The notes below the pieces were generated by a model. That model was not told where the DNA came from. It did no database searches and saw nothing but the letters and a program-made list of their open reading frames with translations. The position numbers and the translations under genes were made by a program. Shown one piece after another: positions 300-53,285 of a DNA stretch of 63,952 bases; the first letter of the stretch is position 1, and each line of letters opens with the position of its first letter. This DNA is from an uncultured Pirellulaceae bacterium (lineage in GTDB: Bacteria > Planctomycetota > Planctomycetia > Pirellulales > Pirellulaceae): positions 1 through 63,952 of the forward strand of contig CALFWR010000059.1 in the NCBI GenBank assembly GCA_937928555.1, written 5' to 3'.

Positions 300-486
300 C
301 CCGGATTATTCACGACGACGGGCGTTGATTCTACGTCTGGCCAACAGCAGCAAGGGAAAAACTGAATTTCAACAAGAAATGTAAATCATCCAGTAGATCA
401 AAACCACAGCGATCGTTTCATCGCATCAGAGTCGCGGGTCACTGTCTCAACTGATTCTGACGCCCACGCCTCGTGAATAATCCGGG
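300..486 (+). mobile_element. MITE-A copy 2, complete
   Basis: A 187-bp element whose ends are the perfect 16-bp inverted repeat CCCGGATTATTCACGA. It is flanked on both sides by ATACA (295-299 and 487-491), a 5-bp target duplication. It encodes nothing plausible and is a non-autonomous element mobilised in trans. Confidence 0.93.
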
Positions 487-928
487 ATACAGGAGATTTC
501 GTTGCCGATTGGGCCAGTCAAAAACCTGTGGGGCAGAATTTTCGCAAAAAAATCGCTGCCACGAGCCCCCAGATGTTGGCCGACCGCGAAGGTGTCGCGT
601 CCGATCGGGCAAATCTTCACTTCTGTACCGCCGCAAAAGCGACAAGGTTTCTCTGGTGTGCGTAATCCGACTCTGCTTGGCGGAAACTTGACTGCGGCAC
701 CATTTGCATTCGTTTCTGCATTCGGTAAAGGGTATAAATGATGCCGACTCCGCTAGACTTGGATCGGGAAAGTTTGGTATACCCTCCAAGTCGAAACCGC
801 GTGGCGTGTGCTAGGACTTCCATCAGGGCACTCGTACAATTTCTCCAGCAGGCTCTTTCGCCCCTTCCAGCCTCCGGAGATTCCACGACCAACAACAGCC
901 CGTAGCCATTTACCTTTCAGGCTAAGCA
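487..928. other. Intergenic region without a recognisable gene
   Basis: Short overlapping open frames on both strands have no recognisable motifs, and one of them ends inside the MITE. This region must hold the promoter of the VKOR-DsbA gene, but I see no clear -35/-10 pair. Confidence 0.5.
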
Positions 929-2620
929 ATGAGTTCAATAACCAAATCATCGGTGAACCCCTACCGCTCGGTAACCGTCGACGGCAAGAATCACGCCTCG
1001 GTTGAACTGGGGCTTTTCGCGTTGCCGCGTAAATGGGTTTTGCTGCTGCTCTGCGTCCCGATGCTCACTGCCCTGGGCGTCTCGGGTTATCTTAGCTACG
1101 CATCGATGACCGCTTCAGAGATTGCTGGTTGCACCGGCGGAGAGCTTTTCGATTGCGGCCACGTTGTTAACAGCAAGTGGTCAAAGTTTCTTGGTATCCC
1201 GGTGAGCCTGATGGCCGTTGCCACCTACGCCGCAATGCTGATCGCGACAGCGTTCACCGCGATCGACGGGTTGTCAACAAAGACCCGTCAATGGTCTTGG
1301 ACAGCGGTTACTGGTTTGGCAATCGCGGCAGCACTGGCCGGGCTGTACTTCGTCTACCTCCAGGTGTTCGTACTGGAACACCTCTGCCCGTGGTGCCTGG
1401 CAGCGCATACCTGCGGATTGATCATCGCCGCCACCGCGATCTGCTACCGACGCATCAACACCGGACGCCTGTTCGGAGTCGGCTTACTTGCTGCCGCCGG
1501 ACTCGCTGTGATGATCGTGGCTCAAATTAACGCCGAAGAACCACAGAAATACGTCATCGAGCGTTACGATCCGATCGACATGCCAACGGACGAAACGAAT
1601 GCCACCCTCACCTCCTTTGACGGCGAGGGCATGGAGTTCATGGCTCCTCCGGTTGAAGAAGATTCAGAAGACCTCTTCGCACCTCCCTCCGATTCAGACG
1701 ACGCTCTCTTCGGACCACCCACCGAAGACGACAGCCTCTTCGATCCGCCATCGGAAGACACAGAGCAGGATCCAACTGTCTTTGACCCACCAACGGAAAA
1801 CGAAGTAAGCCGCAACAGAATTCCGGCAGGACTTCGCTTTGCATCCATCTTCGCACCGCGATTGGCGTTGATGCACTTTCCTGTTCAAGAGCAGATTGGG
1901 TCGCAGACCAAACCTCAAAATGGTTCTCAAGCAAAACCTCAGACCGGATCGCAGACCAAGCCACAGACCGGATCGCAGACCAAGCCTCAGGCCGGATCGC
2001 AGACCAAGCCGCAAGAAGCAAAACAAAAGCAACGCCGCATCGTGTCGTTCATGGGTGGCCGCGCGAAACTTGATGCCAATCAGTGGCCGCTCGACGGCGA
2101 TCCCAACGCCAAGCACGTGTTCGTCGAAATGTTCGACTACACCTGCCCTCACTGCCGCAGCACAACCCAGGCACTTTACGCAGCCAAAGCAAAACTTGGT
2201 GGTGACGTCGCGGTAATCGCACTGCCGGTTCCGCTCAACAGTCTTTGTAATCCGTTGATTACGCAAAACCACCCGTCGCACGTTGAATCATGCCAACTGG
2301 CTCGGCTTGCAGTGTGCGTGTGGCGATGTGATGCGCAGAAGTTCGCCGAGTTCCACAAATGGATGTTCCAGGGGCAGATCTCTCCCAACTACAGCCAGGC
2401 CCTCACCAAAGCCGCAGAACTTGTCGGCAGCGACCAACTGAATAAGGAACTGGCAAAGAAGATTGCCGGTCAGTACATCGAACGGCACGTCAAGCTGTAC
2501 AAAATGGTCGGCGGCGGGGCGGTTCCCAAGCTCCTGTTCCCACAAACATCCGTCGTGGGCGAATTCACCGCAACCGACGCGCTTGTTACGGTTATCCAAG
2601 AGCAGACCGGCGGCAAGTAA
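929..2620 (+). CDS. VKOR-DsbA fusion: membrane disulfide-generating thiol oxidoreductase
   Basis: Residues about 35-200 form a vitamin K epoxide reductase (VKOR) four-helix membrane domain with the loop cysteines C68 and C76 and the CPWC redox motif at 153-156. About 235-295 is an acidic Pro/Asp/Glu-rich linker, 324-363 holds five 8-residue GSQTKPQx repeats, and about 375-563 is a thioredoxin/DsbA-like domain with CPHC at 406-409. VKOR-thioredoxin fusions are known to oxidise secreted proteins and pass electrons to quinone; here the long disordered linker presumably lets the DsbA domain swing to its clients and back to VKOR. The start is the ATG at 929; the gene stands alone, convergent with the downstream TolC-like gene. 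The cysteine-rich secreted proteins elsewhere in the window are possible substrates (inference). Confidence 0.88.
   Translation: MSSITKSSVNPYRSVTVDGKNHASVELGLFALPRKWVLLLLCVPMLTALGVSGYLSYASMTASEIAGCTGGELFDCGHVVNSKWSKFLGIPVSLMAVATYAAMLIATAFTAIDGLSTKTRQWSWTAVTGLAIAAALAGLYFVYLQVFVLEHLCPWCLAAHTCGLIIAATAICYRRINTGRLFGVGLLAAAGLAVMIVAQINAEEPQKYVIERYDPIDMPTDETNATLTSFDGEGMEFMAPPVEEDSEDLFAPPSDSDDALFGPPTEDDSLFDPPSEDTEQDPTVFDPPTENEVSRNRIPAGLRFASIFAPRLALMHFPVQEQIGSQTKPQNGSQAKPQTGSQTKPQTGSQTKPQAGSQTKPQEAKQKQRRIVSFMGGRAKLDANQWPLDGDPNAKHVFVEMFDYTCPHCRSTTQALYAAKAKLGGDVAVIALPVPLNSLCNPLITQNHPSHVESCQLARLAVCVWRCDAQKFAEFHKWMFQGQISPNYSQALTKAAELVGSDQLNKELAKKIAGQYIERHVKLYKMVGGGAVPKLLFPQTSVVGEFTATDALVTVIQEQTGGK
1898..2017 (+). 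repeat. Five tandem 24-bp coding repeats
   Basis: Five in-frame units encode GSQTKPQ plus one variable residue (unit 2 has GSQAKPQ). They lie in the linker of the VKOR-DsbA fusion. Units 3-5 are nearly identical at DNA level, so copy number may vary between strains. Confidence 0.92.
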
Positions 2621-2636
2621 GCCGTCGATCGCCACG

Positions 2637-4880
2637 CTAACGCGTCACAGCCCGCAACAACGTTCGGACTCGACTGGCCGAACGATCAGGAATCCGCTCG
2701 GTCTCGAGCAACGCTTCGTCGATCCTGTTGAGTTCTTCCAATTCCTCGGGGCTCAGTTTGCGCCTGTTGCTTTCCATTTCCGGGCTCTCAATTTCCGGGC
2801 TCTCAATTGCCGGCTCCAGATTCTTACTTGAGGATCCTGAGTTTCCGCTCATCGGCTTCTCTTCGATCACGTCACCCTGCGTGACGGCGCCATCACTGGC
2901 ATCGTCCGGATTTTCTTCTTCGATGACAACCTGCTGAACGGGCACCTCCTGGCCGCGACTCAAAAAGCTGGGGATGGTCGCAGCACGCTGCTCAAAGGGG
3001 CCTCCTGAAACGGGAGCCACATCCGGACAGCATCCCTCAGCAGGCTGCAATCGCCCTGCCTTAATAGACGCCTTTTGCACTGCCGCATCCGACCACGGCC
3101 CTTCGGTCAAATGGATATTGAAACGATTTAGCAGTCCACCGGTCGTAAAGTAGTAATCAAGAATCGCGAGATTGTAGTCTGCAATCGAACGATGCAGCGC
3201 GCTTTCGGCAGTCGCTAGCCGCTGCTGGGCGTCCAAGAGGAAAAACACCTGGTCCTGGCCTTCTTCCACACGCTTGCGCTTGGGTTCAAGTTCATCCTGC
3301 GACGCGATTCGTGCATTGAAACTTGACCGCATTCCCACAAACGAGCGATCGACTTCGGTGAACACGCCGTTAAGGTCGTGAACAATCTGCCGCTGTTGTT
3401 CGGCAAGGATCGTTCGCTCACGAACAAGATTCAGCTCTGCATTGCGGATCGCGAGATGGCCCGACCGCCGACCCAGCGGACCATTGAGCTCAAAGCCAAG
3501 CGACCAGTCGTCAAGATCACCACTGGTCAAATCTTCGACCGCACTTCCGTTGATTCGATCACGACTGCCAAACAGGTTGTCGCCAAAGCCTCGCCAACCG
3601 TAGTTTCCCACCAAATCAAAATTCCACTTGTTCAACTGCTTGGCCGCGACCAGCTCCAATTCGCGTTGACGCACCGACCACGTTTGCCGGCGAAGCTCGA
3701 CACGACGATTTTTGGCCTGGTTTTGGCTGGCGTCCCAGTCCAGTGCAACCGGCGCAACCGTTGGCTCGGTCGCGGGCCGAATCACGCGGCCGTCAGAGGG
3801 ACCGATCCCCATCAGACGACGCAGGTTTCTTTCAGCACCAAGCACACCCGGCTGCCCCTGACCACGACCGGCAAGGGCAACTTGAGCCTGCGATTCAAAA
3901 GTAAAATACTGCTGCCTCGCCTGGGCTTCATCGTCCGGTCGGCCCACGCCGCTATCGAGGCGCAGCTTTCGATTTTCCCAGGTCTCACGGGCAAAATCTC
4001 TGGCAGTCAATTGCGTATCAAGGTTCCGCCACGCGTTGTACAGTTCCCAATAGTTCATTTCGACGTCACGAATCAGGTCACGAACCGCAGATTCGAAATC
4101 GGCAAGTGACTGATCGCTGCGAATCCGGGCGATCAGGACGCCGTTGTACTGACCGGTAATCGCATTGGGACCGGCGATGCGATTCACTTGCGCTCCGGCA
4201 CCGCGAGCCAGAGGCTGGCGAAACTCCAGTTGGTTAACCAGATCGTAGATACTGCCGAATGCGTTGGCAGGCGAGTTGTTGCGGTCGTAGTTGGTCAAAT
4301 TTCGCGCCGTCAACGTACCGCCATAAGCCGTCGGTTTACTGACCTCAAAACGAAAATCGGATCGATTGCTGATCAGGGCTCCCGCACCGCCGCCGACAAA
4401 CGGGTTGTTGAATACTCGCTCGGAACGGTTGTAATTGAACACGCTCGTCAACTGGGCATCGAACTGGCTAAGCGCTGCCTCAACTCCCTGTGGACTGGTT
4501 TCGGCGATCGCCTGGTCGTAAAGCGTCGTCGCACCCTGAGGCGCATTAACAACCACGCCACCAAGTTTTTGCATGACCTTGCTGTTTTTCAACGCCAGCC
4601 TGACACACTCGTCCAGTGACAGATCCCAAGGCGCGACCTGATCAAAATTCTCAATCGAAATCGGAGCTGCAGCGTAGTCAACTTCTTCCAAATCATCTGG
4701 CGAATCAAGCCGCGGGTTGCTGATCTGCTGAAGGTACTCGCTGCAAACCTGTCCTTCACATTCGGAAAGACGGATAGGCCGAGTCTTCGTCGTACAACCG
4801 GCAAGCAGCACCACGGACATACAGGCACATGCCGTCAGCAGCCCCATCAATGTCAGTTGAGAACGTCCAGATCGTTTCAT
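2637..4880 (-). CDS. TolC-like outer-membrane efflux lipoprotein
   Basis: The 747-residue protein begins with a lipoprotein signal ending in LLAGC (Cys about 28), so it is lipid-anchored. The central part has the outer-membrane efflux protein pattern: a DLSLDECVRLALKNS start, then long heptad-rich helices with NYWELYNAWRNL and two related halves, as in TolC/OprM channels. It is longer than E. coli TolC (about 490 residues) because of an N-terminal insertion and a Ser/Glu/Pro-rich tail from about residue 650. No adaptor or RND pump gene is adjacent, so its partner is unknown. The start codon is the ATG after ACGGAAA. It converges on the VKOR-DsbA gene with only 16 bp between the stop codons. 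Confidence 0.82.
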   Translation of the reverse strand: MKRSGRSQLTLMGLLTACACMSVVLLAGCTTKTRPIRLSECEGQVCSEYLQQISNPRLDSPDDLEEVDYAAAPISIENFDQVAPWDLSLDECVRLALKNSKVMQKLGGVVVNAPQGATTLYDQAIAETSPQGVEAALSQFDAQLTSVFNYNRSERVFNNPFVGGGAGALISNRSDFRFEVSKPTAYGGTLTARNLTNYDRNNSPANAFGSIYDLVNQLEFRQPLARGAGAQVNRIAGPNAITGQYNGVLIARIRSDQSLADFESAVRDLIRDVEMNYWELYNAWRNLDTQLTARDFARETWENRKLRLDSGVGRPDDEAQARQQYFTFESQAQVALAGRGQGQPGVLGAERNLRRLMGIGPSDGRVIRPATEPTVAPVALDWDASQNQAKNRRVELRRQTWSVRQRELELVAAKQLNKWNFDLVGNYGWRGFGDNLFGSRDRINGSAVEDLTSGDLDDWSLGFELNGPLGRRSGHLAIRNAELNLVRERTILAEQQRQIVHDLNGVFTEVDRSFVGMRSSFNARIASQDELEPKRKRVEEGQDQVFFLLDAQQRLATAESALHRSIADYNLAILDYYFTTGGLLNRFNIHLTEGPWSDAAVQKASIKAGRLQPAEGCCPDVAPVSGGPFEQRAATIPSFLSRGQEVPVQQVVIEEENPDDASDGAVTQGDVIEEKPMSGNSGSSSKNLEPAIESPEIESPEMESNRRKLSPEELEELNRIDEALLETERIPDRSASRVRTLLRAVTR

Positions 4881-5101
4881 TTTCCGTGACCGGATAAAAA
4901 AGAGAATCAGAAATCATCCTCATCATCGACACAGCCCGAACTCAAAAACACGATTATCGATTCAACGCGCATTGCAAACGCAACACGAACCCGCTTCGTA
5001 ACAACGACGGCTTTACTGACCGGCAAAGTTTACCAACCGCCTCCAATTCTCCATTTTTGACCGCGTTAAACGCCCTTTGACGTAGCTTCTTGCACCGTCA
5101 A

Positions 5102-5188
5102 AGCAATCAGAAAGGGCGGCCCACCGCCGTTTTCAGCGATTCCATTTGGCCCACGCAAAAAGGGGCCGCCAACAAAGATCTGATTGCT
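5102..5188. repeat. Long inverted repeat downstream of the regulatory-like lipoprotein gene
   Basis: AGCAATCAGA at 5102-5111 is perfectly complementary to TCTGATTGCT at 5179-5188. Inside, GGGCGGCC faces GGGGCCGCC. It lies just 3' of the minus-strand gene 5221-5706 and could be a terminator-like structure or a small palindromic repeat; there is no clear U-tract. The rest of the gap 4881-5220 holds nothing recognisable. Confidence 0.55.
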
Positions 5189-5220
5189 GGTTCCCGCGCT
5201 TCACGCAGCGGCAACGGACA

Positions 5221-5706: not shown

Positions 5707-5720
5707 CTTGGTTGGCTCCT

Positions 5721-6956: not shown

Positions 6957-7142
6957 CCGGAATTATTCACGACGACGGGCGTTGATTGCGGTTTGCGTCA
7001 CACCCAACGTACTCAAAGCTGGACCGCCTCCGGAAATTCGGTTCACCTCGCTGATGAGTTCCAAAACAGGACTTTTTTCGGACTGATACGGTGTTCATTG
7101 ACTGAGCGAAAAGCCACGCCCACGCCTCGTGAATAATCCGGG
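6957..7142 (+). mobile_element. MITE-A variant copy with a different interior
   Basis: The left end (CCGGAATTATTCACGACGACGGGCG) and right end (GCCCACGCC then TCGTGAATAATCCGGG) match the MITE-A ends, and the length is the same, but the middle 6985-7115 is unrelated to the other copies and resembles 175-240. Flanking 5-mers are TTTAA and GTTAG, a decayed duplication at best. Probably an older subfamily that uses the same transposase. The rest of 6748-7188 has no gene and should hold the promoter of the DUF1559 gene. Confidence 0.8.
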
Positions 7143-33937: not shown

Positions 33938-34173
33938 GCGAATTGATCTGCAAGTTCGAAGTTCAATGTTTCCATCGTCTCGGCTAACGGGACACGCCGC
34001 TGTGATCACCTCATTGTTTCGCTTGGCACTGGCACCGTCTGGCACCACCTGGCACCGTCTCGCTGCCACAGGTTGCTACCTTGGCTGCCACAAGTTACCG
34101 GGGGTGAGCGTTAGTCCCGACGGGACATGCTGTAGCCACGGGTGTAAACCCGTGGACAGACAATCGAAATGAA
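33938..34173. repeat. Intergenic repeats and hairpins
   Basis: A short tandem of TGGCACCGTC-like units lies at 34023-34060. GTCCCG/CGGGAC hairpin at 34114-34126 and CCACGGGT (34136-34143) paired with ACCCGTGG (34148-34155) follow. They look like fragments of dispersed planctomycete repeats; no gene is visible. Confidence 0.55.
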
Positions 34174-34359
34174 CCCGGATTATTCACGAGGCGTGGGCGT
34201 CAGAATCCGTTGAGACAGTGATCCGCGACTCTGATGCGATGAAACGTTCGCTGTAGTCTTCACCTACCGGATGATTCACATTCTTGTTGAAATTCATCTT
34301 TTCCTTTGCCTCTGTTGGCCGGACGTAGAATCAACGCCCGTCGTCGTGAATAATCCGGG
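34174..34359 (-). mobile_element. MITE-A copy, complete, minus orientation
   Basis: A 186-bp element with the 16-bp terminal inverted repeat at both ends, flanked by ATGAA on each side (34169-34173 and 34360-34364). Oriented opposite to the copy at 35018-35204; the two bracket tRNA-Ala. Confidence 0.93.
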
Positions 34360-34706
34360 ATGAACGTGAAGCCCCGCAGGGGCAACATGAACTGCGGGCG
34401 TTGGATTTCCTGTCGTCTCTTCGGGACGAATCCCTGCACCGAGGTTCCAGTTCCATGGGCTCACGCCGGCTCACACCCAAGGCTACAACATTTCTCCACT
34501 TCGCGGCTGGCGAGGTGCGACCGCATGTCGCGGATTCGCGGCTGGTCGAGGATGGGGGACGCATGCCGTGACTTTGGCTGGAGCAGCGGCCTGTCCGCAA
34601 AAACTAGGGACCACACAAGTTGTCCAGCTACCTTTGCCGCACGCTCAGACGTCTGAGCGGTTGTAGAATCGCTTAATACCCGGCGAAGATCGAGTGATCT
34701 GAAAAG
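34360..34706. other. Intergenic, no gene
   Basis: Contains GCCCCGCAGGGGC (a short hairpin near 34369) and GGGCTCACGCCGGCTCACACC-type text, again reminiscent of dispersed repeats. No credible reading frame. Confidence 0.45.
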
Positions 34707-34779
34707 TGGAGCTGAGGGGGCTCGAACCCCTGACCTTTTGGCTGCCAGCCAAACGCTCTCCCAGCTGAGCTACAGCCCC
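34707..34779 (-). tRNA. tRNA-Ala (anticodon GGC)
   Basis: Read on the minus strand: acceptor GGGGCTG pairs with CAGCTCC (one G-U), D-arm GCTC...GAGC, anticodon stem TTTGG/CCAAA around loop CTGGCAG with anticodon GGC, T-arm AGGGG TTCGAGC CCCCT. 73 nt with discriminator A; CCA is not encoded. Reads the Ala codon GCC. Confidence 0.97.
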
Positions 34780-35017
34780 TTAGGAGTGAGAGTGGAAAAG
34801 TATCACCATGGTTCGCGGATGTCAAGAACGTCCGGAAAAGCGAAGCAAAGTTTGATGATGAATCAGGGCGGAAGTGCGGGAAGGACGCGTGGTGAGCGAG
34901 AATGGAACGCCGGAAACTGTCACCACACCGATGGCTGCGGTTGGTGTTGGCAGGGATGGGCCGGTAAGGCAGGATCGCCACAGCGGCTGACGTCGTGAAG
35001 GGCTGGGCTACCCTGAA

Positions 35018-35204
35018 CCCGGATTATTCACGACGACGGGCGTTGATTCTACGTCTGGCCAACAGGAGCAGGGGAAAAGCCGAATTTCAACAAGAAATTT
35101 GAATCATCCGGTAGATGAAAACCACAGCGATCGTTTCATCGCATCAGAGTCGTGGATCACTGTCGGAACTGATTCTGCCGCCCACGCCTCGTGAATAATC
35201 CGGG
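35018..35204 (+). mobile_element. MITE-A copy, complete
   Basis: A 187-bp element flanked by CTGAA on both sides (35013-35017 and 35205-35209). Perfect 16-bp ends; interior matches the copies at 300 and 43681. Confidence 0.93.
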
Positions 35205-35403
35205 CTGAAACGATGCCAGCGGAATTAAGGCGCAGTTGCCGGAGCGGCTGATTGGGTTGGCTATCTTCGAAACGAAACCGGCCGAATCAAGCTGGCTTGC
35301 GGCTGCGAAAACTCCGTCCTTGTTCCGGCCTACTTCTGTGCAAACGCATTGCCGCAAAGCCATCGTTGAGTCGGCCTGTCGATAGCCAACGACCTACACT
35401 CGC

Positions 35404-36612: not shown

Positions 36613-37054
36613 CGCCACCTTGCCTCCATGCAATGGTCGGGGTCAGATCGGCGGAAGTTACAGATCTTGCTGGGGAGCGTCAAGAGAACCCAAAACCCGA
36701 AAAACCCCGGCATTTAGCGGTGAAAAAGGCAACAGAATTTGGGCCATTCAACTTTTTGTCGGAATCAATGTACGAATTGCGACCGGTCACGACAAATAGA
36801 ATGCTGACGGCCTGGTTGCGTTCCTGTCCCTGCCACGATGAATCTGTTAAACAGCACTATCGTGAGTGTTTCGATCACACAGGGTTTCATTCCCGGATGT
36901 CATCAACAGGTTCAACAGGGGCATGTTGGCATTTAGTTTGGACTTGCAAAGCATGATTCAGCAGGACACGGACGACCGTGAAGGTCGCGGCGGTTACGAA
37001 CAACGTCGCGACAAGGCAAAGCCATTGAATCTTCAAAAAAATAAAGGTAATGAA
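36613..37054. other. Intergenic region upstream of the RTX gene
   Basis: The frame of the RTX gene is open back to 36866, but codon content there is unlike a signal region and the real start is at 37055. The gap separates divergent genes and must hold both promoters; I cannot name them with confidence. Confidence 0.4.
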
Positions 37055-40000
37055 ATGAAAAACACTCGTTGGCTTGATTCTCTCTGTCGCAACGACACAA
37101 CGAACCGAACACCAGACCGTCGCAAGCGGCGTAGTTCTGCAGCCAAGTTGGGCATTGAGCAACTCGAAAGCCGTCAACTGCTGGCGTCTGTGGCTTTCGA
37201 TGCCGCGAACAGTTTGCTGACCTTTACCGCGGACGCCGGACAAGTCGACACGGTTCTGGTTTCTTCCAGTACACCGCAGCAACTTGAGATTCAGGTTGGC
37301 GTCGGAGACGTGATCACGCTTGCTGGCGACGCTGTCAACAACCCGGACTTCAATATTGTTTCGACATCGGTTGCCGGCGACCTGCTTGAGATCAACCTGG
37401 CCGGTTCGCAAGTGACGGACTTTAATGTTGACCTTGGTGACGCGAACGACGCTTTCGTGGCGACCGGACTGGCGAGCGTTGCAGCGATTACCGTTAACGG
37501 CGGCGGCGGATCGGACGCCATCGACTTTTCTGCTGTCAGCGTTGGGGCAACGCTCATCGGCGGCAGTGGTGGCGACACGCTAACCGGTGGCGCGGGAGAC
37601 GATTTGCTTGTCGGCGGCGGTGGTGACGATACCATCGATGGCGGTGCCGGAAGCGACACCAATTCGTTTGTCGGAATTGGCTTGGGGGTGACGGCCACGA
37701 TTGACGCTGGTGGCGGCGGGACGGCTTCTTACGGAAGCATTGTGGAAACGTTTTCCGGAATCGAAAACTTGATCGGAACCGCGAACAATGACTTTCTGAC
37801 TGGAAACAACAGCGCCAACGTAATCGACGGCGGTGCGGGCAACGACACGCTGACCGGTGGCGGAGGCGGCGACACGTTGCTCGGCGGTGCGGGAGATGAT
37901 GTGCTTGCCGGTGGCGGTGGAAGTGACGTCATTGATGGCGGTGCCGGTATCGACACCAACTCCTTTGCCGGAATTGGTATCGGCGTGACGGCCACGATCG
38001 ACGCCGGTGGCGGGGGAACGGCGGTTTACGGCGGCATCAACGAGACGTTTGCGGGAATCGAAAACCTGACCGGATCAGACAACGACGATGTCTTGACGGG
38101 TAACAATGGCGTGAACGTGGTCGCAGGCGGCTTGGGCAATGATACGCTTGTCGGAGCCGGCGGTGGCGACACGCTGCTTGGCGGTGCCGGAGACGATGTG
38201 CTTGCTGGTGGCGGTGGAAGCGACGTCATTGATGGCGGTGCCGGCATCGACACCAACTCCTTTGCCGGAATTGGTATCGGCGTGACGGCCACGATCGACG
38301 CCGGTGGCGGGGGAACGGCGGTTTACGGCGGCATCAACGAGACGTTTATACGAATCGAAAACCTGACCGGATCAGACAACGATGACATCCTAACGGGCAA
38401 CGACAATATCAACGTGATCGATGGCGGTCTGGGCAACGACATTCTGACCGGTGCCGGCGGTGGCGACACGCTGTTGGGCGGCGCGGGAGATGATGTGCTT
38501 GTCGGCGGCGGCGGAAGCGACTTCATTGATGGCGGAACCGGAATCGACACCAATTCCTTTGCCGGGATTGGCATCGGCGTGACCGCTGCGATCCAAGACG
38601 ATGGAACTGGAACGGCTGTTTACGGGGGCATCAATGAGACATTTGCAGGGATTGAAAACCTTGGCGGCAGCGATAACGATGACAACCTGACCGGAAACAA
38701 CAGCGCCAACCAGATCGATGGTGGCTTGGGCAATGACGTCATCGACGGAAGCGGTGGCGACGACGTGCTGCTGGGTGGATCGGGCAATGATCAGATTGCC
38801 GGCGGGGCGGGTGACGATCGCCTGATCGGTGGCTTTGGTGACGACGAGCTTAATGGTGGCGGCGGCGATGATTCGCTTGTTGGTAACGGGCAAATTGAAG
38901 TGACCGTGACCAACCTGGCAACCGCGGATGGCTTTTCGTTGACTCCAGTTTTCCTGGCAACTCAAAACGGCGTGTACGATTTCTTTGATGTTGGCAGTGC
39001 GGCATCAGCCAACCTTGAGCGGCTTGCCGAAGACGGAACCACTGGCCCGCGGATCGCTGCGGCGTTGGCAAGCGGTGGTGTTGGTGAAGCCCGGGCAACC
39101 GAAGGCGGCCTGTTGGCCCCTGGTGATACACGAACGCTGACATTTTATGCGGATCCGGACAACCCGCTGACGCGGTACCTGAGTTACACTTCGATGCTTA
39201 TCCCGAGCAACGATGCTTTCATTGCCAACGACAGTCCGCTGGAACTGGATCTGTTCGACGATAGTGGAAACCTGATAACCCGTGTCGGCGATGAGATTTT
39301 TATCGTTAGCGGTGACGAAGTTTGGGACGCGGGAACAGAAGTCAATGACGAGATTCCTGGCAACACGCCGCTTTTGGGTCAAAACGCTCCTGACACTGGC
39401 GTGACTGAAAACGGTGTGATCCAGCAGCATCCGGGCTTTCAGGGCTCTGCCCGGCTTGGTGGCCCCATCGGCAACGTACTGACCGCTCGACCCGGATCCG
39501 ATTTTACTTTGCCAGGCGCCAATGTGCTTGGCATCGAAGTGGATGACGCCGTCAACGAAACCGGATTTTCGATCGCGTCCTTTGATCAGCCCCTGGCGTC
39601 GCTGACAACCAACCAGACTCCCGCAGAGCTTGTCGATGAAGCGATAGCGGATCGGCTTTACTACAACATTCACACCAGTGACTTTCCGGGCGGCGAAATT
39701 CGTGGCCAGTTGTTGTTGCAATCCGATGCGACGACCAGTGGAATTCGGACAATCGTACTTACTGCGGACCTTGATGGGGCTCAGGAGCCCAACGGAGCTT
39801 CCGAATCTGAAGCGACAGGGCAGGGCACTGTCACGATCACCGTTGACGGAAGTTCGGTCACTTACTCTTCCGAGCTTTCCGTTGAAGGGATCCTGGTCGA
39901 GGAACTGATGCCGGTATCGGGTGTCAGTTCAATCCACATCCACAACGCCGCAGCGGGAGTCAATGGACCGGTTATTGTTGACATTGTTCAGGACGCTGGT

Positions 40001-41332
40001 GGCGACATCAACGGAGATCTTGTCGGTGGCGGAAGTGCTTTTGCGGTTGCGGCCGAAACAGACAATGACACGCTGATTGGCGGCAACGGCAATGATCGAC
40101 TCTTTGGCGGCGGCGGCGATGACTTGCTTGACGGCGGCAGTGGCGATGACACTCTTAGTGGCGGCAGTGGCGATGACACGCTGCGTGGCGGCATTGGAGA
40201 CGATGTTGCCTCCGGTGGTGCCGGTGATGATTTCCTCAATGGCGCTGGCGGAAACGACACGCTCAACGGCGACGACGGAGATGATTTCTTTGTGGGAATC
40301 GGCGGAACGGACATCATCGACGGGGGAGCCGGAATTGACACCAACTCATTCGAAGGCATCGGAGTCGGTGTGACGGCGGTGCTTAACGAGGACGGAAGTG
40401 GAACCGCAACTTACGGAATGGTGAATGAAGCGTTTGTCGGAATCGAAAACCTGACGGGGTCGGATAACGCAGATTCCCTGACCGCTACCGGCAACAGCGA
40501 CAACGTCATTCGAGGCCTTGGTGGCGATGACCTGATCGTCGCTGGCGGTGGCGATGATTTGCTGATCGGCAACGACGGCAACGATATCCTTCGTGGCATC
40601 AATGGCAACGACACAATCATTGGCGGTACCGGCAACGACAACCTGATTGGTGGCGGGGGCAACGACATTTTGCTCGGAGAAGACGGCAACGATCTTTTGG
40701 TTGGCTTCGGCGGCACCGACTTCATCGATGGTGGCAACGGATTTGACACCAACTCCTTCCGGGGAATTGCGCTGGGAGTGACGGCCAGCATCAACACCAA
40801 TGGTTCAGGGCAGGCGTCTTACGGAATGGTGAATGAATCGTTTGCCAGCATCGAAGTCCTGTTCGGCTCGGACAACGATGACGTGTTTGTCGTGAACGGT
40901 TCGATTGGCAGACGGATCTTTGGCGGCGACGGCGATGACCTGATCCTTGGTGGAACCGGAAACGACATTCTCTTCGGCGGCGCGGGCAACGATATTATTC
41001 GCGGCCGGGCGGGCAATGACCTGGTTTTCGGCGAAGCCGGGAATGACTTGCTCAACGGTGGCAACGGCGACGATTTCTTGCGTGGCGACGATGGGGATGA
41101 CAACCTGACCGGTGGCGACGGCAGCGATCGGCTCAACGGTAGCGACGGCGCTGACTTCCTGTTTGGCAGCAATGGAATCGACTTCCTGTTTGGAGCTTCA
41201 GGAAACGACAGCCTGTTCGGCGGCGATGACGACGATGAACTTCGCGGCGGCGACGACGATGACTTGCTTGTCGGTGGACTGGGCGATGACGATTTGTTTG
41301 GTGGATTCGGTGACAACAACCTGATTCAGTAA
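37055..41332 (+). CDS. Giant secreted RTX protein with spondin and CHRD domains
   Basis: About 1425 residues from the ATG at 37055 (AAAGG upstream). The N-terminus KLGIEQLESRQLLA (about residues 31-44) is the planctomycete LExRxLLA export-associated motif rather than a classical signal. Residues 187-582 are four tandem 99-residue units with GGxGxDxLxGG calcium-binding nonapeptides. About 612-840 looks like a spondin-N domain (EVTVTNLATADGFSLTPVFLATQ), and about 850-1000 a CHRD domain (YYNIHTSDFPGGEIRGQ, SIHIHNAAAGVNGP). From about 1003 to the end there are more RTX repeats, with two diverged copies of the 99-residue unit. Expected to fold on binding calcium outside the cell and act in adhesion or matrix building. 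No type I secretion genes lie nearby. A strong terminator follows. Confidence 0.88.
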   Translation: MKNTRWLDSLCRNDTTNRTPDRRKRRSSAAKLGIEQLESRQLLASVAFDAANSLLTFTADAGQVDTVLVSSSTPQQLEIQVGVGDVITLAGDAVNNPDFNIVSTSVAGDLLEINLAGSQVTDFNVDLGDANDAFVATGLASVAAITVNGGGGSDAIDFSAVSVGATLIGGSGGDTLTGGAGDDLLVGGGGDDTIDGGAGSDTNSFVGIGLGVTATIDAGGGGTASYGSIVETFSGIENLIGTANNDFLTGNNSANVIDGGAGNDTLTGGGGGDTLLGGAGDDVLAGGGGSDVIDGGAGIDTNSFAGIGIGVTATIDAGGGGTAVYGGINETFAGIENLTGSDNDDVLTGNNGVNVVAGGLGNDTLVGAGGGDTLLGGAGDDVLAGGGGSDVIDGGAGIDTNSFAGIGIGVTATIDAGGGGTAVYGGINETFIRIENLTGSDNDDILTGNDNINVIDGGLGNDILTGAGGGDTLLGGAGDDVLVGGGGSDFIDGGTGIDTNSFAGIGIGVTAAIQDDGTGTAVYGGINETFAGIENLGGSDNDDNLTGNNSANQIDGGLGNDVIDGSGGDDVLLGGSGNDQIAGGAGDDRLIGGFGDDELNGGGGDDSLVGNGQIEVTVTNLATADGFSLTPVFLATQNGVYDFFDVGSAASANLERLAEDGTTGPRIAAALASGGVGEARATEGGLLAPGDTRTLTFYADPDNPLTRYLSYTSMLIPSNDAFIANDSPLELDLFDDSGNLITRVGDEIFIVSGDEVWDAGTEVNDEIPGNTPLLGQNAPDTGVTENGVIQQHPGFQGSARLGGPIGNVLTARPGSDFTLPGANVLGIEVDDAVNETGFSIASFDQPLASLTTNQTPAELVDEAIADRLYYNIHTSDFPGGEIRGQLLLQSDATTSGIRTIVLTADLDGAQEPNGASESEATGQGTVTITVDGSSVTYSSELSVEGILVEELMPVSGVSSIHIHNAAAGVNGPVIVDIVQDAGGDINGDLVGGGSAFAVAAETDNDTLIGGNGNDRLFGGGGDDLLDGGSGDDTLSGGSGDDTLRGGIGDDVASGGAGDDFLNGAGGNDTLNGDDGDDFFVGIGGTDIIDGGAGIDTNSFEGIGVGVTAVLNEDGSGTATYGMVNEAFVGIENLTGSDNADSLTATGNSDNVIRGLGGDDLIVAGGGDDLLIGNDGNDILRGINGNDTIIGGTGNDNLIGGGGNDILLGEDGNDLLVGFGGTDFIDGGNGFDTNSFRGIALGVTASINTNGSGQASYGMVNESFASIEVLFGSDNDDVFVVNGSIGRRIFGGDGDDLILGGTGNDILFGGAGNDIIRGRAGNDLVFGEAGNDLLNGGNGDDFLRGDDGDDNLTGGDGSDRLNGSDGADFLFGSNGIDFLFGASGNDSLFGGDDDDELRGGDDDDLLVGGLGDDDLFGGFGDNNLIQ
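37613..38800 (+). repeat. Four tandem 297-bp coding repeats in the RTX gene
   Basis: Units begin at 37613, 37910, 38207 and 38504. Each encodes 99 residues from GGGG(S/D)D to DDVLA or an equivalent. About 37935-38050 and 38232-38347 are almost identical at DNA level, showing a recent duplication; unit 4 and the distant units near 40300 and 40700 are more diverged. Confidence 0.92.
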
Positions 41333-43630: not shown

Positions 43631-43680
43631 TCGCGCGGATCTGGATGATCCGTACATGGGGCTGAGAAAGGTATTGTTAA

Positions 43681-43867
43681 CCCGGATTATTCACGACGAC
43701 GGGCGTTGATTCTACGTCTGGCCAACAGAGGCAAAGTAAAAGACGAATTTCAACAAGAAATGTGAATCATCCTGTAAATGAAAACCAGAGCGATCGTTTC
43801 ATCGCATCAGAGTCGCGGATCACTTTCGCAACTGATTCTGACGCCCACGCCTCGTGAATAATCCGGG
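43681..43867 (+). mobile_element. MITE-A copy, complete
   Basis: A 187-bp element flanked by GTTAA on both sides (43676-43680 and 43868-43872). Perfect 16-bp ends. It lies in the intergenic gap between moeA and purL. Confidence 0.93.
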
Positions 43868-43954
43868 GTTAAGGCCTATCCGTTTGCCGATGAAGACAAT
43901 CGATGACCTGGCCGTTGGAACTGAACCCGGCCGTTTACGCGTCTCGGCTCACAA

Positions 43955-47156: not shown

Positions 47157-47286
47157 TGGTCTGTCAGCATCAAAAATTAGGATTGTTCAGATCAGCCGTT
47201 TGGGCGTTAGCCCCGGTTTTTCGTTTCGGAACCGTGGCTATCGCCAAAACGGCTAACCCTAAAATCCAATGCTGACACTCCACTAG
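47153..47286 (+). mobile_element. MITE-B element, complete, overlapping the purL stop codon
   Basis: A 134-bp element: CTAGTGGTCTGTCAGCAT at the left end matches the complement of ATGCTGACACTCCACTAG at the right end at 16 of 18 positions. The interior is itself an imperfect hairpin (GCCGTTTGGGCG...CGCCAAAACGGC). Possible TA duplication as in IS630/Tc1-type elements. A second copy begins at 63845. Confidence 0.85.
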
Positions 47287-48373: not shown

Positions 48374-48703
48374 ATGACCAAAATCACACTGGACTCCGAA
48401 CCGGATTTTGCACCTGTCGAAGGGTATCGAGCCAAAATGATCCACACCGACCAAATGAGCATTGCCCATTGGTCGGTCGATCCGGACTGCGAACTACCGG
48501 AACATTCTCATCCTCACGAACAAATCATGAACCTGATCGAGGGTGAGTTTGTCCTGACCCTCGAAGGCGTACCGATTTCCATGAAAGCCGGAGAATCTTT
48601 GGTGATTCCCGGCGGAGCCCTTCACTCTGGCAAATCCGTTACGGCGTGCAAAATCATCGATGTCTGGAATCCACCTCGGGATGACTACCGTAATCAGGCT
48701 TGA
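48374..48703 (+). CDS. Cupin-domain protein
   Basis: A 109-residue single-domain cupin. Motif 1 is ELPEHSHPHEQIMNLIEGEF with the two metal-binding His and the Glu, and motif 2 is VIPGGALHSGKSV with the third His. It may be a small metal-dependent enzyme or a sugar/metal-binding protein. The ATG at 48374 is preferred to an upstream in-frame start at 48341. tRNA-Ser follows 42 bp downstream. Confidence 0.8.
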   Translation: MTKITLDSEPDFAPVEGYRAKMIHTDQMSIAHWSVDPDCELPEHSHPHEQIMNLIEGEFVLTLEGVPISMKAGESLVIPGGALHSGKSVTACKIIDVWNPPRDDYRNQA

Positions 48704-48745
48704 TTTTGGCTTGCACCACGGTAAATTGACGCCAGAGGAAAACTT

Positions 48746-48834
48746 GGAGATGTGGCTGAGTGGTCGAAAGCGCCTGATTGCTAATTAGGTGATGGAGTCA
48801 AATCCATCCGCAGGTTCGAATCCTGTCGTCTCCG
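48746..48834 (+). tRNA. tRNA-Ser (anticodon GCT)
   Basis: 89 nt: acceptor GGAGATG pairs with CGTCTCC (one U-G), anticodon stem CCTGA/TTAGG around TTGCTAA with anticodon GCT, a long variable arm (GATGGAGTCAAATCCATC) typical of tRNA-Ser, T-arm CAGG TTCGAAT CCTG, discriminator G. CCA is not encoded. Reads AGC/AGU. Confidence 0.97.
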
Positions 48835-48980
48835 CTTTGAAATCTGACCAGCTCGCAAGTGCCACGAATTTTGGTGTTTGCGAGCTTTCTTTCGTTTGGG
48901 GGTTTGGCCGGGACGGTGCCTTGCGATCGTGGCCCCGCGACAAATAGAATACCCGATTCGAGTCGCTAAACCTGCAAAAC

Positions 48981-50240
48981 ATGACAGCTGAAAAATTCCT
49001 GGTTCACAAATTTGACAACGGGTTCTCCCTAGTCGCGCAGCCGATGCCGTGGCTGGCCAGCGCCGCGTTTGCTTTTGCTCTGCCGGCTGGCTGTCGCTAC
49101 GACAGATCCGATCGCATTGGCACGGCCAGCTTTGCCAGCGAAATGGTCCAACGCGGCTGTGGGAAACTCGACAGTCGTCAGTTTATCGATCAACTGCAAC
49201 TTTTGGGGGTCGACTACAACTCTTCGATTTCCAACTATCACTCCTGGTTCGGCGGCGCGATGAAAGCCACTGAACTTCACGACACGCTTTCGATCTATCG
49301 CGACGTCGCACGCGATCCGCACCTTCCGGCATCCCAGTTCGAAGACGGCCGCATGGTGTGCTTGCAGGAGATCATGGCGATGGAAGACGACCTTTCCCGC
49401 AAAGCCCTTCGTGAGGTTCGCTTGAGGCACTACGGTGACCCCGATGGTCGCAGCCCCGATGGGTCGGTCGAATCGATTTCCTCGCTCGACATCTCGCACA
49501 TTGAAGACTTTGTCAAAACTTGCTACCAGCCCGATGGCAGCATTCTGGCCGTCGCGGGAAAGATCGATTTCGACGCTCTCAAAGATCACGTTGCCGACCT
49601 GTTCGCTGATTGGAAAACAGGCGAACCTCCGATCGCCGAAGAATCCACCCCAAGCCACGGATCCCATCATCTTCCCTTTGATAGCGAGCAAACGCACATC
49701 GCACTGGCTTGCCCGGGCGTTTCTTACACGCACCAGGACTTCTACACTCACCGTGCGGCCATCGGCGTGCTCAGCGACGGGCTGAGTTCGAGGCTGTTCC
49801 ACGAAGTCCGTGAAAAACGCGGGCTGTGCTATTCCGTTTTCGCCACCTGTCATTCGGTCGGCAAACGGGGGGCGGTCATCGCCTACAGTGGAACTTCCTC
49901 GGGGCGAGCCCAGGAAACGCTGGACGTTTTGGTCAGCGAACTTCGACGCCTTAAAGACGGCATCACCAGCGAGGAACTTGATCGCCTTAAAGTCCAATTT
50001 CGCAGCAGCCTGATCATGCAACAGGAATCGTCGCGATCCAGGGCAGGCTCGATTGCGTCCGACTGGTATCACCTTGGCCGCATCCGGGACGTTGGCGAAA
50101 TCAACCAAATCATCAATAACCTGACGGTCGAAGGAATCAACGAATTCCTTGTCGATCGCTATCCGAATAACTTTGACATGGTGACCCTTGGTCCCAAACC
50201 GCTGGAACTCAACGATGCAATATCGACAGCACAAGCTTGA
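48981..50240 (+). CDS. M16 peptidase-family protein lacking the zinc motif
   Basis: A 419-residue M16 (insulinase/processing-peptidase) fold protein. The N-terminal FDNGFSLVAQPMPWLASAAFAFALPAGCRYD is typical, but the HxxEH zinc site is replaced by FASEMV (about residues 51-56), so it cannot be catalytic alone. The second domain is normal (LSSRLFHEVREKRGLCYSVFA). It overlaps by 26 bp the next gene, which encodes a catalytically competent M16 subunit; the two resemble the alpha/beta pair of mitochondrial processing peptidase and other two-subunit bacterial M16 enzymes. Location is probably cytoplasmic, since no signal peptide is visible. Confidence 0.88.
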   Translation: MTAEKFLVHKFDNGFSLVAQPMPWLASAAFAFALPAGCRYDRSDRIGTASFASEMVQRGCGKLDSRQFIDQLQLLGVDYNSSISNYHSWFGGAMKATELHDTLSIYRDVARDPHLPASQFEDGRMVCLQEIMAMEDDLSRKALREVRLRHYGDPDGRSPDGSVESISSLDISHIEDFVKTCYQPDGSILAVAGKIDFDALKDHVADLFADWKTGEPPIAEESTPSHGSHHLPFDSEQTHIALACPGVSYTHQDFYTHRAAIGVLSDGLSSRLFHEVREKRGLCYSVFATCHSVGKRGAVIAYSGTSSGRAQETLDVLVSELRRLKDGITSEELDRLKVQFRSSLIMQQESSRSRAGSIASDWYHLGRIRDVGEINQIINNLTVEGINEFLVDRYPNNFDMVTLGPKPLELNDAISTAQA

Positions 50241-51450
50241 TAACGGGCTGGAAATTCTTGCCGAATGCAACCCGCAAGCTCACTTTTCGGCCTACGGTTT
50301 TTTTGTCCGCACCGGTGCCCGCGACGAAACGGCAAACATTGGCGGGGTAAGCCACTTTCTTGAACACATGGTGTTCAAGGGAACGCCCAACCGGAGCGCC
50401 GAAGAAGTCAATCGCCGCCTGGACGAAATGGGCTCCAGCAGCAACGCTCGCACAGGCGAAGAAAGCACCATCTATCACGCCGCTGCACTTCCGGAATTTC
50501 AGGACGATATGGTCGAATTGCTCGCCGACCTGATGCGACCTTCGCTTCGGGAAAACGACTTTGAAACCGAAAAGAAAGTCATCATCGAAGAGATTCTCAT
50601 GTACGCCGACCAGCCTCCCTACGGTGGCTACGAACGCATCATGGAAGAGTTCTTCTCGGGACACCCTCTGCAACAAAGTGTACTTGGCACCGTCGATACC
50701 GTCAGTTCACTCACACCCGACGCGATGAAGGCCTATTTTGATCGCCAATACAGTCCCGGCAACATGGCCTTTGCCGCAGCAGGCAAAGTCGACTTTGACC
50801 GACTGGTAGAGACGCTCGAAACGAGTTGCGGATCATGGCAACCCTTCGATGTCCAACGGAGCACTCCCGACACCACAGGCCATTCAGGGTTTCACATCAT
50901 CCACAAAGAAAACTCGGCCCAGCAGTACATCCTGCAACTGGCTAAAGGCCCCGCCGCCAAAGACGAGCGGCGTTTCGCGTCACGTGTCGCGACCGCGATT
51001 CTGGGTGATGATGCAGGTAGCCGCATGTACTGGGAATTCCTCGACAGCGGCCGAGCAGAATCTGCGGGAGTCGGAACCTACGAATACGACAACAGCGGCG
51101 CGATCATGACCTACCTTTGTTGTTCTCCGGATAGCGCAAAGGACAACCTGCAGCGGCTTCACGAACTGCAAACCAAAATCCGGGACGGCGTTAGCGAGCG
51201 CGAACTGGAAATGGCAAAAAGCAAAATCGCGTCGCAGATTGTGCTTGGTAGCGAAGCCACCGAAAGCCGCATGTTCTCGATCGGTTCGCAGTGGCTAACC
51301 GGATTGCCGTACCGGACTCCCGAACAAATCGCTCGGCACTATGAAAGCGTCACACTGCAACAGGTCAACGAGATTCTTCGCGAGTATCCGCTGACCCAAA
51401 ACACCACCCTTGTCGTGGGACCGGAAAAGAATCTCGCTCCGCCCGCTTAG
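50215..51450 (+). CDS. Zinc-dependent M16 peptidase, catalytic subunit
   Basis: A 411-residue M16B protease with the inverted zinc motif HFLEH at residues 47-51 and the downstream glutamate region ETEKKVIIEEI, all needed for zinc and catalysis. The C-terminal half has the paired inactive-type domain. The start is the ATG at 50215, so the gene overlaps the partner gene by 26 bp, implying translational coupling and a 1:1 heterodimer. Substrate is unknown. Confidence 0.92.
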   Translation: MQYRQHKLDNGLEILAECNPQAHFSAYGFFVRTGARDETANIGGVSHFLEHMVFKGTPNRSAEEVNRRLDEMGSSSNARTGEESTIYHAAALPEFQDDMVELLADLMRPSLRENDFETEKKVIIEEILMYADQPPYGGYERIMEEFFSGHPLQQSVLGTVDTVSSLTPDAMKAYFDRQYSPGNMAFAAAGKVDFDRLVETLETSCGSWQPFDVQRSTPDTTGHSGFHIIHKENSAQQYILQLAKGPAAKDERRFASRVATAILGDDAGSRMYWEFLDSGRAESAGVGTYEYDNSGAIMTYLCCSPDSAKDNLQRLHELQTKIRDGVSERELEMAKSKIASQIVLGSEATESRMFSIGSQWLTGLPYRTPEQIARHYESVTLQQVNEILREYPLTQNTTLVVGPEKNLAPPA

Positions 51451-51978
51451 TTCAGAAACTGTCGTGAAACAGTATCCACATTGGGTAACCCGATGCGTTA
51501 GCGAGTCAGATCATTGCACGAGCCGCTTTGGTGCTTGCCACGGATTTTGGCCATCCAGCGGTCGCTTGTTCCAAAACAACAGACATTGAACCTGCGTTGT
51601 GACAGGCCGGCAGATTCCATCGCTGTGCTCCAGATCAATTTTCAGGATAGCGTTTTTTTTCCAAGTGCTGGCAAACACTGAATCGCCGAATTTGCTGGAA
51701 AAACATTGGTTTTTTACCCATCAGTCTGTTTCGCCAGCCGTTGTCGGGGGCTTGATCGACACATTGGGCTTGCTGTATCCCATACGTCCTCCTATACGTC
51801 CTTCCATTGCTAACGACATTCGTTGGCTTGATCTTTGAAAACACTGAAAGCCTGGTCGAAGTGCAAAGGATTGCGGGATCCTCGCACACCCTCCCTCCTG
51901 GGAAACGAGCTTTAACGCTTGCTGTGACATAATCTGGGTCAATGAATCAGCAGGTGCTCACGACCAAGCTTTACTGTG
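51451..51978. other. Intergenic region, no gene
   Basis: Begins with a half copy of a palindromic repeat (GGTAACCCGATGCGTTAGCG at 51484, followed by AG). The rest has AT-rich tracts and short frames without motifs. Confidence 0.45.
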
Positions 51979-52004
51979 CACTGAGGTGGCTTGCCACCTC
52001 AGTG
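51979..52004. repeat. Perfect 26-bp hairpin
   Basis: CACTGAGGTGGC, a 2-base loop TT, then GCCACCTCAGTG, a perfect 12-bp stem. It lies 11 bp before the terminator at 52016; together they could form the 3' end of a small RNA or a double terminator. Confidence 0.8.
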
Positions 52005-52015
52005 CCAGGGAACAC

Positions 52016-52050
52016 GACGCTGGTCTCAATCGAGACCAGCGTCTTTTTTT
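52016..52050 (+). terminator. Strong Rho-independent terminator
   Basis: GACGCTGGTCTC (52016-52027), loop AATC, GAGACCAGCGTC (52032-52043), then seven T on the plus strand. The stem is perfect, 12 bp. On the minus strand the same stem lies downstream of leuD but lacks a T-run. Confidence 0.92.
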
Positions 52051-52095
52051 GTGGATACGTTCTTACGGTTCCGCACTCCGCACTCCGCATTTCAA

Positions 52096-52683
52096 CTACG
52101 CCCGCTGGCTTTCAAACTTCGCGATTTTGTCTTCGTGCGTCAGCGTCAGACCGATCTGATCCAGACCTTCCAAAAAGCACTTCCTGCGAAAGTCATCGAT
52201 CTCGAACGTTGCCGAAAAACCGGACTCGTCGGTGACGATGTTGGCTTCCAGATCGACAGTCACCTGATAGCTATCGTCAGCAGCGATCTTTTGGTGCAAT
52301 TGTTCGACCTGTTCGGTGGTCAAAACCACTGGCAGCACGCCGTTCTTTGAGCAGTTATTGTAAAAGATATCTGCGAACGATTCCGCGATCACGCAGCGGA
52401 ACCCAAAATCATCCAACGCCCAAACCGCGTGCTCTCGACTGGAACCGTTGCCAAAGTTCTGCCTTGCCACCAGCACCGAGGCCTTGCGATAGGCCGGCTG
52501 ATTCAAAACGAAGTCAGGCTTTTCGCTGCCGTCGGCTTCGAAACGCCAATCGAAAAACAGAAACTTCCCAAAACCCGTTCGTTCGATGCGTTTCAGGAAC
52601 TGCTTGGGGATGATCTGATCGGTATCCACATTGGATCGATCCATCGGTGCCGCTAGGCCTGTGTGTTTTGTAAATGCTTTCAT
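52096..52683 (-). CDS. leuD: 3-isopropylmalate dehydratase small subunit
   Basis: A 195-residue protein, the swivelling domain of isopropylmalate isomerase in leucine synthesis. It shows [38 protein letters not shown] with the substrate-contacting Ser-Arg pair, and [19 protein letters not shown]. The ATG at 52683 gives the normal length (E. coli 201), though the frame is open to 53016. leuC lies upstream on the same strand but about 700 bp away, with a palindromic repeat and a MITE between, so it may need its own promoter. Confidence 0.95.
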
Positions 52684-52731
52684 GGTCCCTACAGTACAAT
52701 TTTGTTCGCCAGAAATCCAAACGGGTGCTCT

Positions 52732-52801
52732 GGTAACTCGACGCGTAAGCGAGGAAAGAATACCGTAGCTCGTCCCGTCCTCGCTGACGCCTCGGGTTAC
52801 C
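52732..52801. repeat. Palindromic 70-bp repeat between leuC and leuD
   Basis: The left arm (52732-52754) begins GGTAACTCGACGCGTAAGCG, and the right arm (52779-52801) is its complement at 20 of 23 positions. A half-site of the same family is at 51484. Resembles REP-like palindromes. Confidence 0.85.
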
Positions 52802-53099
52802 ATTACATTAGCTTCACCGCCGCGTGGCGTTCCTTCAACCCCTGCTTCTTGAGCGGGTCTCACCGCGAACATGACCCAAAACACAAATTGTGATAATTTC
52901 GCCTTGGGCAGGCGTTCTGCCATCGGTTTGCCGGTTTGCCAATGGTTGGGTTTACGCAGGAAGCGCCTTCGTAGGCCGGACCAAGAAAACTGCAGGTGGT
53001 TCAGTGTCGGATGCACCAGAGAGCTTGGGTATTCTCAAACGCTACCAAGTGAATTCAACTGTTTTCGACGTTCCGGCAACACGCGATTGTGCCTTTGAT

Positions 53100-53285
53100 C
53101 CCGGATTATTCACGAGGCGCGGGCGTCCGAATCAGTTGAGACAGTGATCGGTTACTCTGATGCGATGAAACGATCGCTGTGGCTTTCACCTAACGAATGA
53201 TTCACATTTCTTGTTGAAATTCAGTTTTCCCTTGCTCCTGTTGGCCAGACGTAGAGTCAACGCCCGTCGTCGTGAATAATCCGGG
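53100..53285 (-). mobile_element. MITE-A copy, complete, between leuC and leuD
   Basis: A 186-bp element flanked by TTGAT on both sides (53095-53099 and 53286-53290). Orientation is opposite to most copies. It lies in the 700-bp gap of the split leuCD pair. Confidence 0.93.

Follow-up and report, generated by a model that had tools for sequence, protein, structure and literature searches.

Correia elements of Neisseria and ERIC elements of Enterobacteria insert at a TA target and have parents that are not known to be of the IS1380 type, the small palindromes of the REP/RAYT system (repetitive extragenic palindromes and their associated transposase) are not known to have target duplications, and the ends of Tn3-type TIMEs (Tn3-derived inverted-repeat miniature elements), about 38-40 bp long, start with GGGG. 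The family described here was recognised in a window of 63,952 bp, which is the whole of contig C59 (CALFWR010000059.1) in the metagenome-assembled genome (MAG) of an uncultured Pirellulaceae bacterium (GCA_937928555.1; 4.87 Mb in 168 contigs, estimated to be 91% complete). It consists of repeats of about 187 bp, which are a family of miniature inverted-repeat transposable elements (MITEs), ordinary in kind. Like Correia and ERIC elements, as these are treated in a MITE review (PMC10969869), the repeats are short and non-coding, carry terminal inverted repeats and reach a high copy number, but their ends and target differ. ERIC elements occur in many genera, whereas the present family was seen in one genome and, as a single copy, in a congener. 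With the TIMEs, according to PMC4133298, it shares non-autonomy and 5-bp duplications; TIMEs, in contrast, have Tn3-type ends of about 40 bp and AT-rich targets. The ends of our family start with CCCGG and its target is NTNAN, which separates it from Tn3-derived TIMEs, and exact 5-bp duplications in 82 of 148 elements separate it from REP/RAYT.

On the evidence given below, we put at about 85% the probability that these non-coding MITEs are moved in trans by a transposase of the IS1380 family (DDE type), from a sub-group that makes 5-bp duplications. A member of this family, IS1247, is entered with a 5-bp direct repeat in Table 2 of PMC3281130. Among the matches listed in a search of open-licence papers, judged by titles and the beginnings of abstracts, there was neither an IS1380-derived MITE family nor any MITE family in planctomycetes, and neither "IS1380" nor "planctomycet" occurs in the main text of the review PMC10969869. 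The first 13 bp of the end were found in one open-licence paper, on RNA interactions and apparently unrelated. What makes the family worth attention is its high number, its restriction to one of the genomes searched (save for a single congener copy), the failure to find its enzyme, and the split in IS1380 targets to which it points.

Insertion sites and copy number

The first-pass annotation had described five copies in the window. All five were located again exactly where it had placed them (Table 1); each starts with CCCGGATTATTCACGA and finishes with the exact reverse complement, and the flanking 5-mer of each is exactly the same on both sides. Two more copies, absent from that annotation, were found, one truncated by the contig start and one diverged. 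For the genome at large, we sampled 75 stretches, the window among them, that total 1,282,346 bp (26% of the genome). An end was accepted if it departed from one of two end forms at no more than three positions, and an element had to measure 150-230 bp. This gave 428 end sequences and 151 elements, 103 of them exactly 187 bp long; the elements account for about 2.2% of the DNA sampled.

Identical 5-mers flank 82 of the 148 elements with both flanks readable and identical 6-mers flank none, while shuffling the right flanks 1000 times gave on average 3.3 identical 5-mers (maximum 11). The motif NTNAN is present in 77 of the 82 exact duplications, as compared to a background of 4.4% in the sampled genome: all 82 have T at position 2 and 77 have A at position 4, and the ATACA of the window is one of the five duplications outside the motif. 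A weaker Y/R preference was observed immediately outside the duplication, so that the target appears as a loose palindrome. Moreover, four nested insertions offer empty sites with a single target copy inside the same genome, in older copies: when the inner element and one copy of the target-site duplication (TSD) were removed, alignment to intact copies showed that the older outer element was restored. In two cases (L053 and L196) this alignment, of 188 and 187 columns, had no gaps against any of the three listed copies, and in the other two (L046 and L211) it had one to two gap openings. In an ungapped comparison of the 40 bp centred on the junction, 31 positions agreed in L046 and 38 in each of the other three. 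The transposition with a 5-bp staggered cut that had been proposed from the window copies is therefore upheld by the duplications, the motif and the four empty sites. The copies also constitute a ready record of target choice.

The sub-family A consensus (sub-families are defined below) contains stops in all six frames. The idea of a frame-preserving insertion (187 + 5 = 192 bp) was dropped for this reason. When the flanks of insertions were joined, 13 of 78 sites showed a frame that stays open for 150 nt or more on each side, with 18-20 in frame-shifted controls; a looser version gave 26 of 75 sites, with 28 in its control. The repeats thus have what characterises MITEs: they are short with terminal inverted repeats, their TSD is single in the empty site, they do not code and they are numerous.

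A search of the whole genome for the 16-bp end, which the first-pass annotation had recommended, gave 787 exact occurrences (399 + 388), and 185 elements, 172-202 bp long, are perfect at both ends. The total was estimated as 573 elements from the sampled length, a figure that may run high because the sample was partly picked around known copies, as 553 from exact ends and as 527 from perfect pairs. The genome of 4.87 Mb is therefore estimated to hold about 500-600 copies. This approaches the largest MITE number given in the accessible text of the review PMC10969869, which is that of ERIC in Photorhabdus (as many as 711 copies). Of 79 contig ends examined, 28 fell inside an element (18 of the 51 starts and 10 of the 28 ends), as compared to 73 of 1480 interior pieces; hence the family appears to break the assembly, and near-identical copies are probably under-counted. 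In this respect the copies provide a ready record of how such DNA breaks MAG assemblies.

The transposase and the IS1380 family

Ends of the CCCGGATTATTCA type were searched for in 396 genomes of the order, allowing two mismatches, and were found in 55 of them (focal genome included), several having 10-16 matches. One of these genomes (G174) contains a complete 1682-bp IS1380 with the ends CCCGGATTATTCACGGCC and CCCGGATTATTCACGAGGGTGC, both starting with CCCGGATTATTCA, and a transposase matching NF033539 (7e-84) and PF13701 (1e-101). The first 13 bp of the MITE end are identical to both ends of this element, and an end with the same 13 bp is present in the IS1380s of G173 and G265; complete IS1380s of relatives have ends such as CCCGGATTATTCACGAGGGTGC or CCCGCCTTATTCACGAGGGCG. 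On plasmids, the IS1380s of Halomonas KO116 (end CCCGCCTTATTCACGAGG), Paracoccus aerodenitrificans, Celeribacter indicus and Pseudomonas putida have similar ends and, like the MITEs, 5-bp duplications of the NTNAN form: GTTAA and CTTAA in Halomonas, TTCAC in Paracoccus, TTTAT in Celeribacter and TTAAA in P. putida. They differ from the MITEs in being 1.7 kb long with a transposase, whereas the MITEs are 187 bp, non-coding and present in hundreds of copies. IS1380s of the same order with CCCGGATTATTCA, CCCGGATATTTCA or CCCGGATATTGCA ends (G174, G173, G265, G197, G012 and G014) duplicate 4 bp of the form YTAR, unlike the MITEs.

With its CCCGGATTATTCA-type CC ends and its 5-bp NTNAN duplications, which resemble the five plasmid insertions and not the YTAR group, the focal family fits the 5-bp IS1380 group. 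The IS1380-like parent, offered as an inference in the first-pass annotation, is therefore well supported by the ends of relatives and by the plasmid duplications, and the parent itself was not found in this assembly or at the congener loci examined. A broken IS1380 in another genome of the order (G403; end CCCGGATTATTCACGAG, 1809 bp if its outer ends belong together) has NTNAN flanks on both sides (TTGAA and ATGAT, read outward). Its two transposase pieces are closest to the 5-bp group, with 35% identity over 226 amino acids (aa) to Paracoccus, and the larger one gave no match to the G174 transposase at 1e-3. In the same order, a mini-element of 192 bp in G290 is flanked by a 5-bp duplication (ATTAG), and three ends in G397 have NTNAN flanks.

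The enzyme would recognise about the last 30 bp of each end, that is CCCGGATTATTCACGA and a sub-terminal block with GGGCGT, would cut the element out and would insert it into a target cut with a 5-bp stagger; repair of the gaps would then produce the duplication. Its parent element may have been lost, may lie on the missing part of the MAG or may have been present only for a time. The ends expected of such a parent are CCGGAATTATTCACGACGACGGGC and CCCGGATTATTCACGAGGCGTGGGC. In six-frame searches of the whole genome, neither PF13701 nor PF01609 matched the window contig (other transposase families were not searched, and the open reading frames (ORFs) of the window were not scanned singly for domains); together with the lack of an open frame through the sub-family A consensus, this agrees with the earlier description of the elements as non-autonomous. 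Elsewhere in the genome, PF13701 matched an IS1380 with other ends on contig C119, a fragment on C30 and, weakly, an IS4-type sequence. The C119 element was ruled out as parent by its ends (CCTAGTCCTTAAACAAGTGAT). In the 1.28-Mb sample, three neighbouring pairs of MITE-type ends lie 1.5-3 kb apart and none holds up as a long element, each pair having at least one end with three mismatches and flanks that do not match; the search paired neighbouring ends at most 4 kb apart, so a long element with an internal MITE copy would escape it.

Several results weigh against an origin from the 5-bp IS1380 group. The first-pass annotation had advised looking for a full element with the same ends, and none was found in the 91%-complete assembly or at the 27 congener loci examined. 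In the order, the flanks could be read for eight complete IS1380s (one G174 element in three copies, and single ones in G173, G265, G197, G012 and G014), and every one has a 4-bp TSD (CTAG, CTAA or TTAA); a degenerate 1342-bp G174 copy has no exact duplication, the other loci of the order being cut or without a second end. As elements of the 4-bp class can share the first 13 bp of the family, ends alone do not decide the class. Among the 15 plasmid IS1380 loci examined, a 5-bp duplication was found in five, 4 bp in one (a Pseudanabaena copy) and none in nine, the Stenotrophomonas locus and the second Pseudanabaena copy being those of the nine with clear ends. The five plasmid insertions are separate events in about two lineages, the Halomonas and P. 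putida transposases being 94% identical and the Paracoccus and Celeribacter ends the same. The agreement of their ends with those of the MITEs is good and not identical (CCCGCC or CCCGGTT as compared to CCCGGA), and the G403 element lacks an identical duplication. Finally, 39 of the 148 flank pairs differ at two or more positions, which exceeds the prediction from decay; in sub-family A, such pairs amount to 23%, as compared to about 10% predicted. NTNAN is present on both sides in 24 of the 39 pairs, on one side in 12 and on neither in three, which suggests recombination between copies or misassembly.

IS1380s with similar ends occur in two classes, 4-bp YTAR and 5-bp NTNAN (loci in Table 1), which invite a direct comparison of how the enzyme sets the stagger. 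Short IS1380-type mini-elements (164-192 bp) were also observed in other species of the order, three with 4-bp duplications (CTAG) and one with a 5-bp duplication (ATTAG).

Age, spread and alternative explanations

Clustering of the 151 elements gave sub-families A (116), B (12), C (9), D (9) and E (2) and three singletons, with a mean pairwise divergence of 9.9% in A, 14.4% in B, 9.4% in C and 22.5% in D. The sub-families are diverged in their interiors, A most clearly standing apart, and have in common the ends and the usual length of 186-188 bp; in B, C and D the left end is still CCGGAATTATTCACGA or a sequence near to it. Copies of sub-family A are on average 5.6% away from their consensus, no two are identical and nearest neighbours are at least 1.6% apart. 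Exact TSDs were found in 59% of 113 copies of A, as compared to the 56% predicted by neutral decay at this divergence. Singleton mutations in A amount to 0.79 per site at positions 17-30 and 158-171 as compared to 0.61 in the middle (0.44 and 0.50 in the outermost 16 bp, values biased because the same bases served for detection), whereas shared variants fall from 7.5 copies per site in the middle to 1.4-3.4 in the terminal 30 bp, a 2- to 5-fold reduction. Since singletons are not depleted sub-terminally and shared variants are rare at the ends, the ends seem to matter during copying and not once a copy is resident. Resident copies decay without sign of selection, as selfish DNA rather than DNA with a host function, and they record which of the end bases (about 30 bp) the enzyme may need.

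Of the 59 relatives searched for the exact 16-mer end, as the first-pass annotation had also advised, 27 belong to the same genus, and none contains it. The sub-terminal pattern, with two mismatches allowed, gave 0-4 matches per genome in 240 other genomes of the family as compared to 677 in the focal one (0-1 per genome for the reversed-pattern control). Six of these matches were opened (two in G007, two in G019 and one each in G015 and G088) and only that of the congener G015 is an element, of 86 bp, with both ends and no exact duplication. The same congener holds the one occurrence of the older 23-bp left-end form CCGGAATTATTCACGACGACGGG in a scan of 84,980 species, from which the focal genome was left out and in which the sub-family A end form was not scanned. 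A viral collection gave no match for either sub-terminal end. Among the genomes searched, the expansion is therefore seen in the focal genome alone, one congener copy apart.

We advance a further proposal tentatively, at somewhat less than even odds. A transient, since-lost IS1380 of the 5-bp group might have set off species-specific bursts of older resident mini-elements, which form at least four sub-families alike in their ends and their length of 186-188 bp and diverged in their interiors, and the family, with more than 500 copies in one species, would have outlived its enzyme; IS1380 would be cleanly split into 4-bp YTAR and 5-bp NTNAN classes, one central base apart.

Three other explanations were considered. 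Another DDE transposase, for example of the IS4 family, might mobilise the repeats, their CC ends being due to convergence. The sole PF01609 match in the genome is an IS4-type transposase on contig C96 (NF033592, 2.9e-43), and a CCCGGATTATTCAT sequence about 130-150 bp from it made it look promising as the parent. However, the homology between the two genomic IS4 copies stops at CAGTGCCATTCG, so that the real IS4 end is CGAATGGCACTG and CCCGGATTATTCAT lies outside; the MITE ends do not match those of this element, which was ruled out, and the 13-bp terminal identity and the same 5-bp NTNAN target point to IS1380, which leaves convergence improbable. We regard as still less probable that the copy number was inflated or scrambled by MAG assembly. 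The frequency with which contig ends fall in elements is in its favour, and so are the 24 strongly mismatched flank pairs with NTNAN on both sides, as expected of chimeric joins or recombination between copies, but the mutual distinctness of the sub-family A copies and the matching TSDs of 82 elements are against it, and assembly collapse would lower the count rather than raise it.

It is very unlikely indeed that the repeats are kept for a host function, as an RNA hairpin, a terminator or a REP-like element, with the duplications being secondary. One strand of one copy folds better than shuffled sequences (z -4.4), and two of the 16 terminator-like sites of the scanned region lie inside copies (35127-35142 and 43790-43805); yet these 16 sites compare with 12.1 expected (sd 3.9), promoter-like sites number 2 as compared to 3.2 expected, and Rfam gave no match at the window copies. 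The copies are mostly intergenic (127 of 151 lie mostly outside ORFs called by a simple script, as compared to 15% of random placements), a bias to be expected from selection against gene damage. Private mutations are not depleted at positions 17-30 and 158-171, with somewhat fewer in the outermost 16 bp, where detection is biased, and the searched congeners do without these elements, except for the one 86-bp copy. Movement by an IS1380-type enzyme remains our preferred explanation.

Coordinates and further observations

Table 1. Positions of the MITE copies in the window and loci of related elements in other genomes
Feature	Position	Strand	Remarks
MITE copy, sub-family A, 187 bp	300-486	+	TSD ATACA at 295-299 and 487-491
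MITE copy, sub-family A, 186 bp	34174-34359	-	TSD ATGAA at 34169-34173 and 34360-34364
MITE copy, sub-family A, 187 bp	35018-35204	+	TSD CTGAA at 35013-35017 and 35205-35209
MITE copy, sub-family A, 187 bp	43681-43867	+	TSD GTTAA at 43676-43680 and 43868-43872
MITE copy, sub-family A, 186 bp	53100-53285	-	TSD TTGAT at 53095-53099 and 53286-53290
MITE copy truncated by contig start	1-166	+	base 1 of contig C59 is the window start; right flank starts ATCAG
Diverged MITE copy, sub-family D, 186 bp	6957-7142	+	left end CCGGAATTATTCACGA; flanks TTTAA/GTTAG, without exact duplication
Mini-elements of other species in the order	L159:2823-2995, L160:2714-2886, L152:3131-3294, L250:2018-2209		
IS1380 loci, 4-bp YTAR class	L144, L146, L164, L165, L234, L235, L238, L241		
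IS1380 loci, 5-bp NTNAN class	L265, L266, L268, L270, L273		

Beside the IS4-type element of contig C96, a lone CCCGGATTATTCAT end with an ATAAA flank (L045:15620) may be what is left of an IS1380 end. At four loci of two other genomes (L141, L142, L155 and L156; G226 and G227), short palindromes with the sequence CCCGGATTTTTCAAAAAGCCGGGCTTCT or one near to it resemble MITE ends and are apparently another repeat type. In the window, a tRNA-Ala (ggc) gene at 34706-34779 lies between two MITE copies 658 bp apart. A second repeat family is represented at 47179-47286 and 63845-63952 by inverted copies of 108 nt, 99% identical, with a REP-like palindrome (AGCCGTTTGGGCGTTAGCCCCGG); L222 and L212 contain more copies, and the end of the window falls within one copy. 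The ORF at 36866-41332 encodes 1488 aa rich in GGxGxD-like repeats, which we take to be a calcium-binding motif, and contains at 37550-38740 four head-to-tail repeats of 297 bp, with 72-75% identity to the first; for a fifth repeat, at 40232, the value is 61%.

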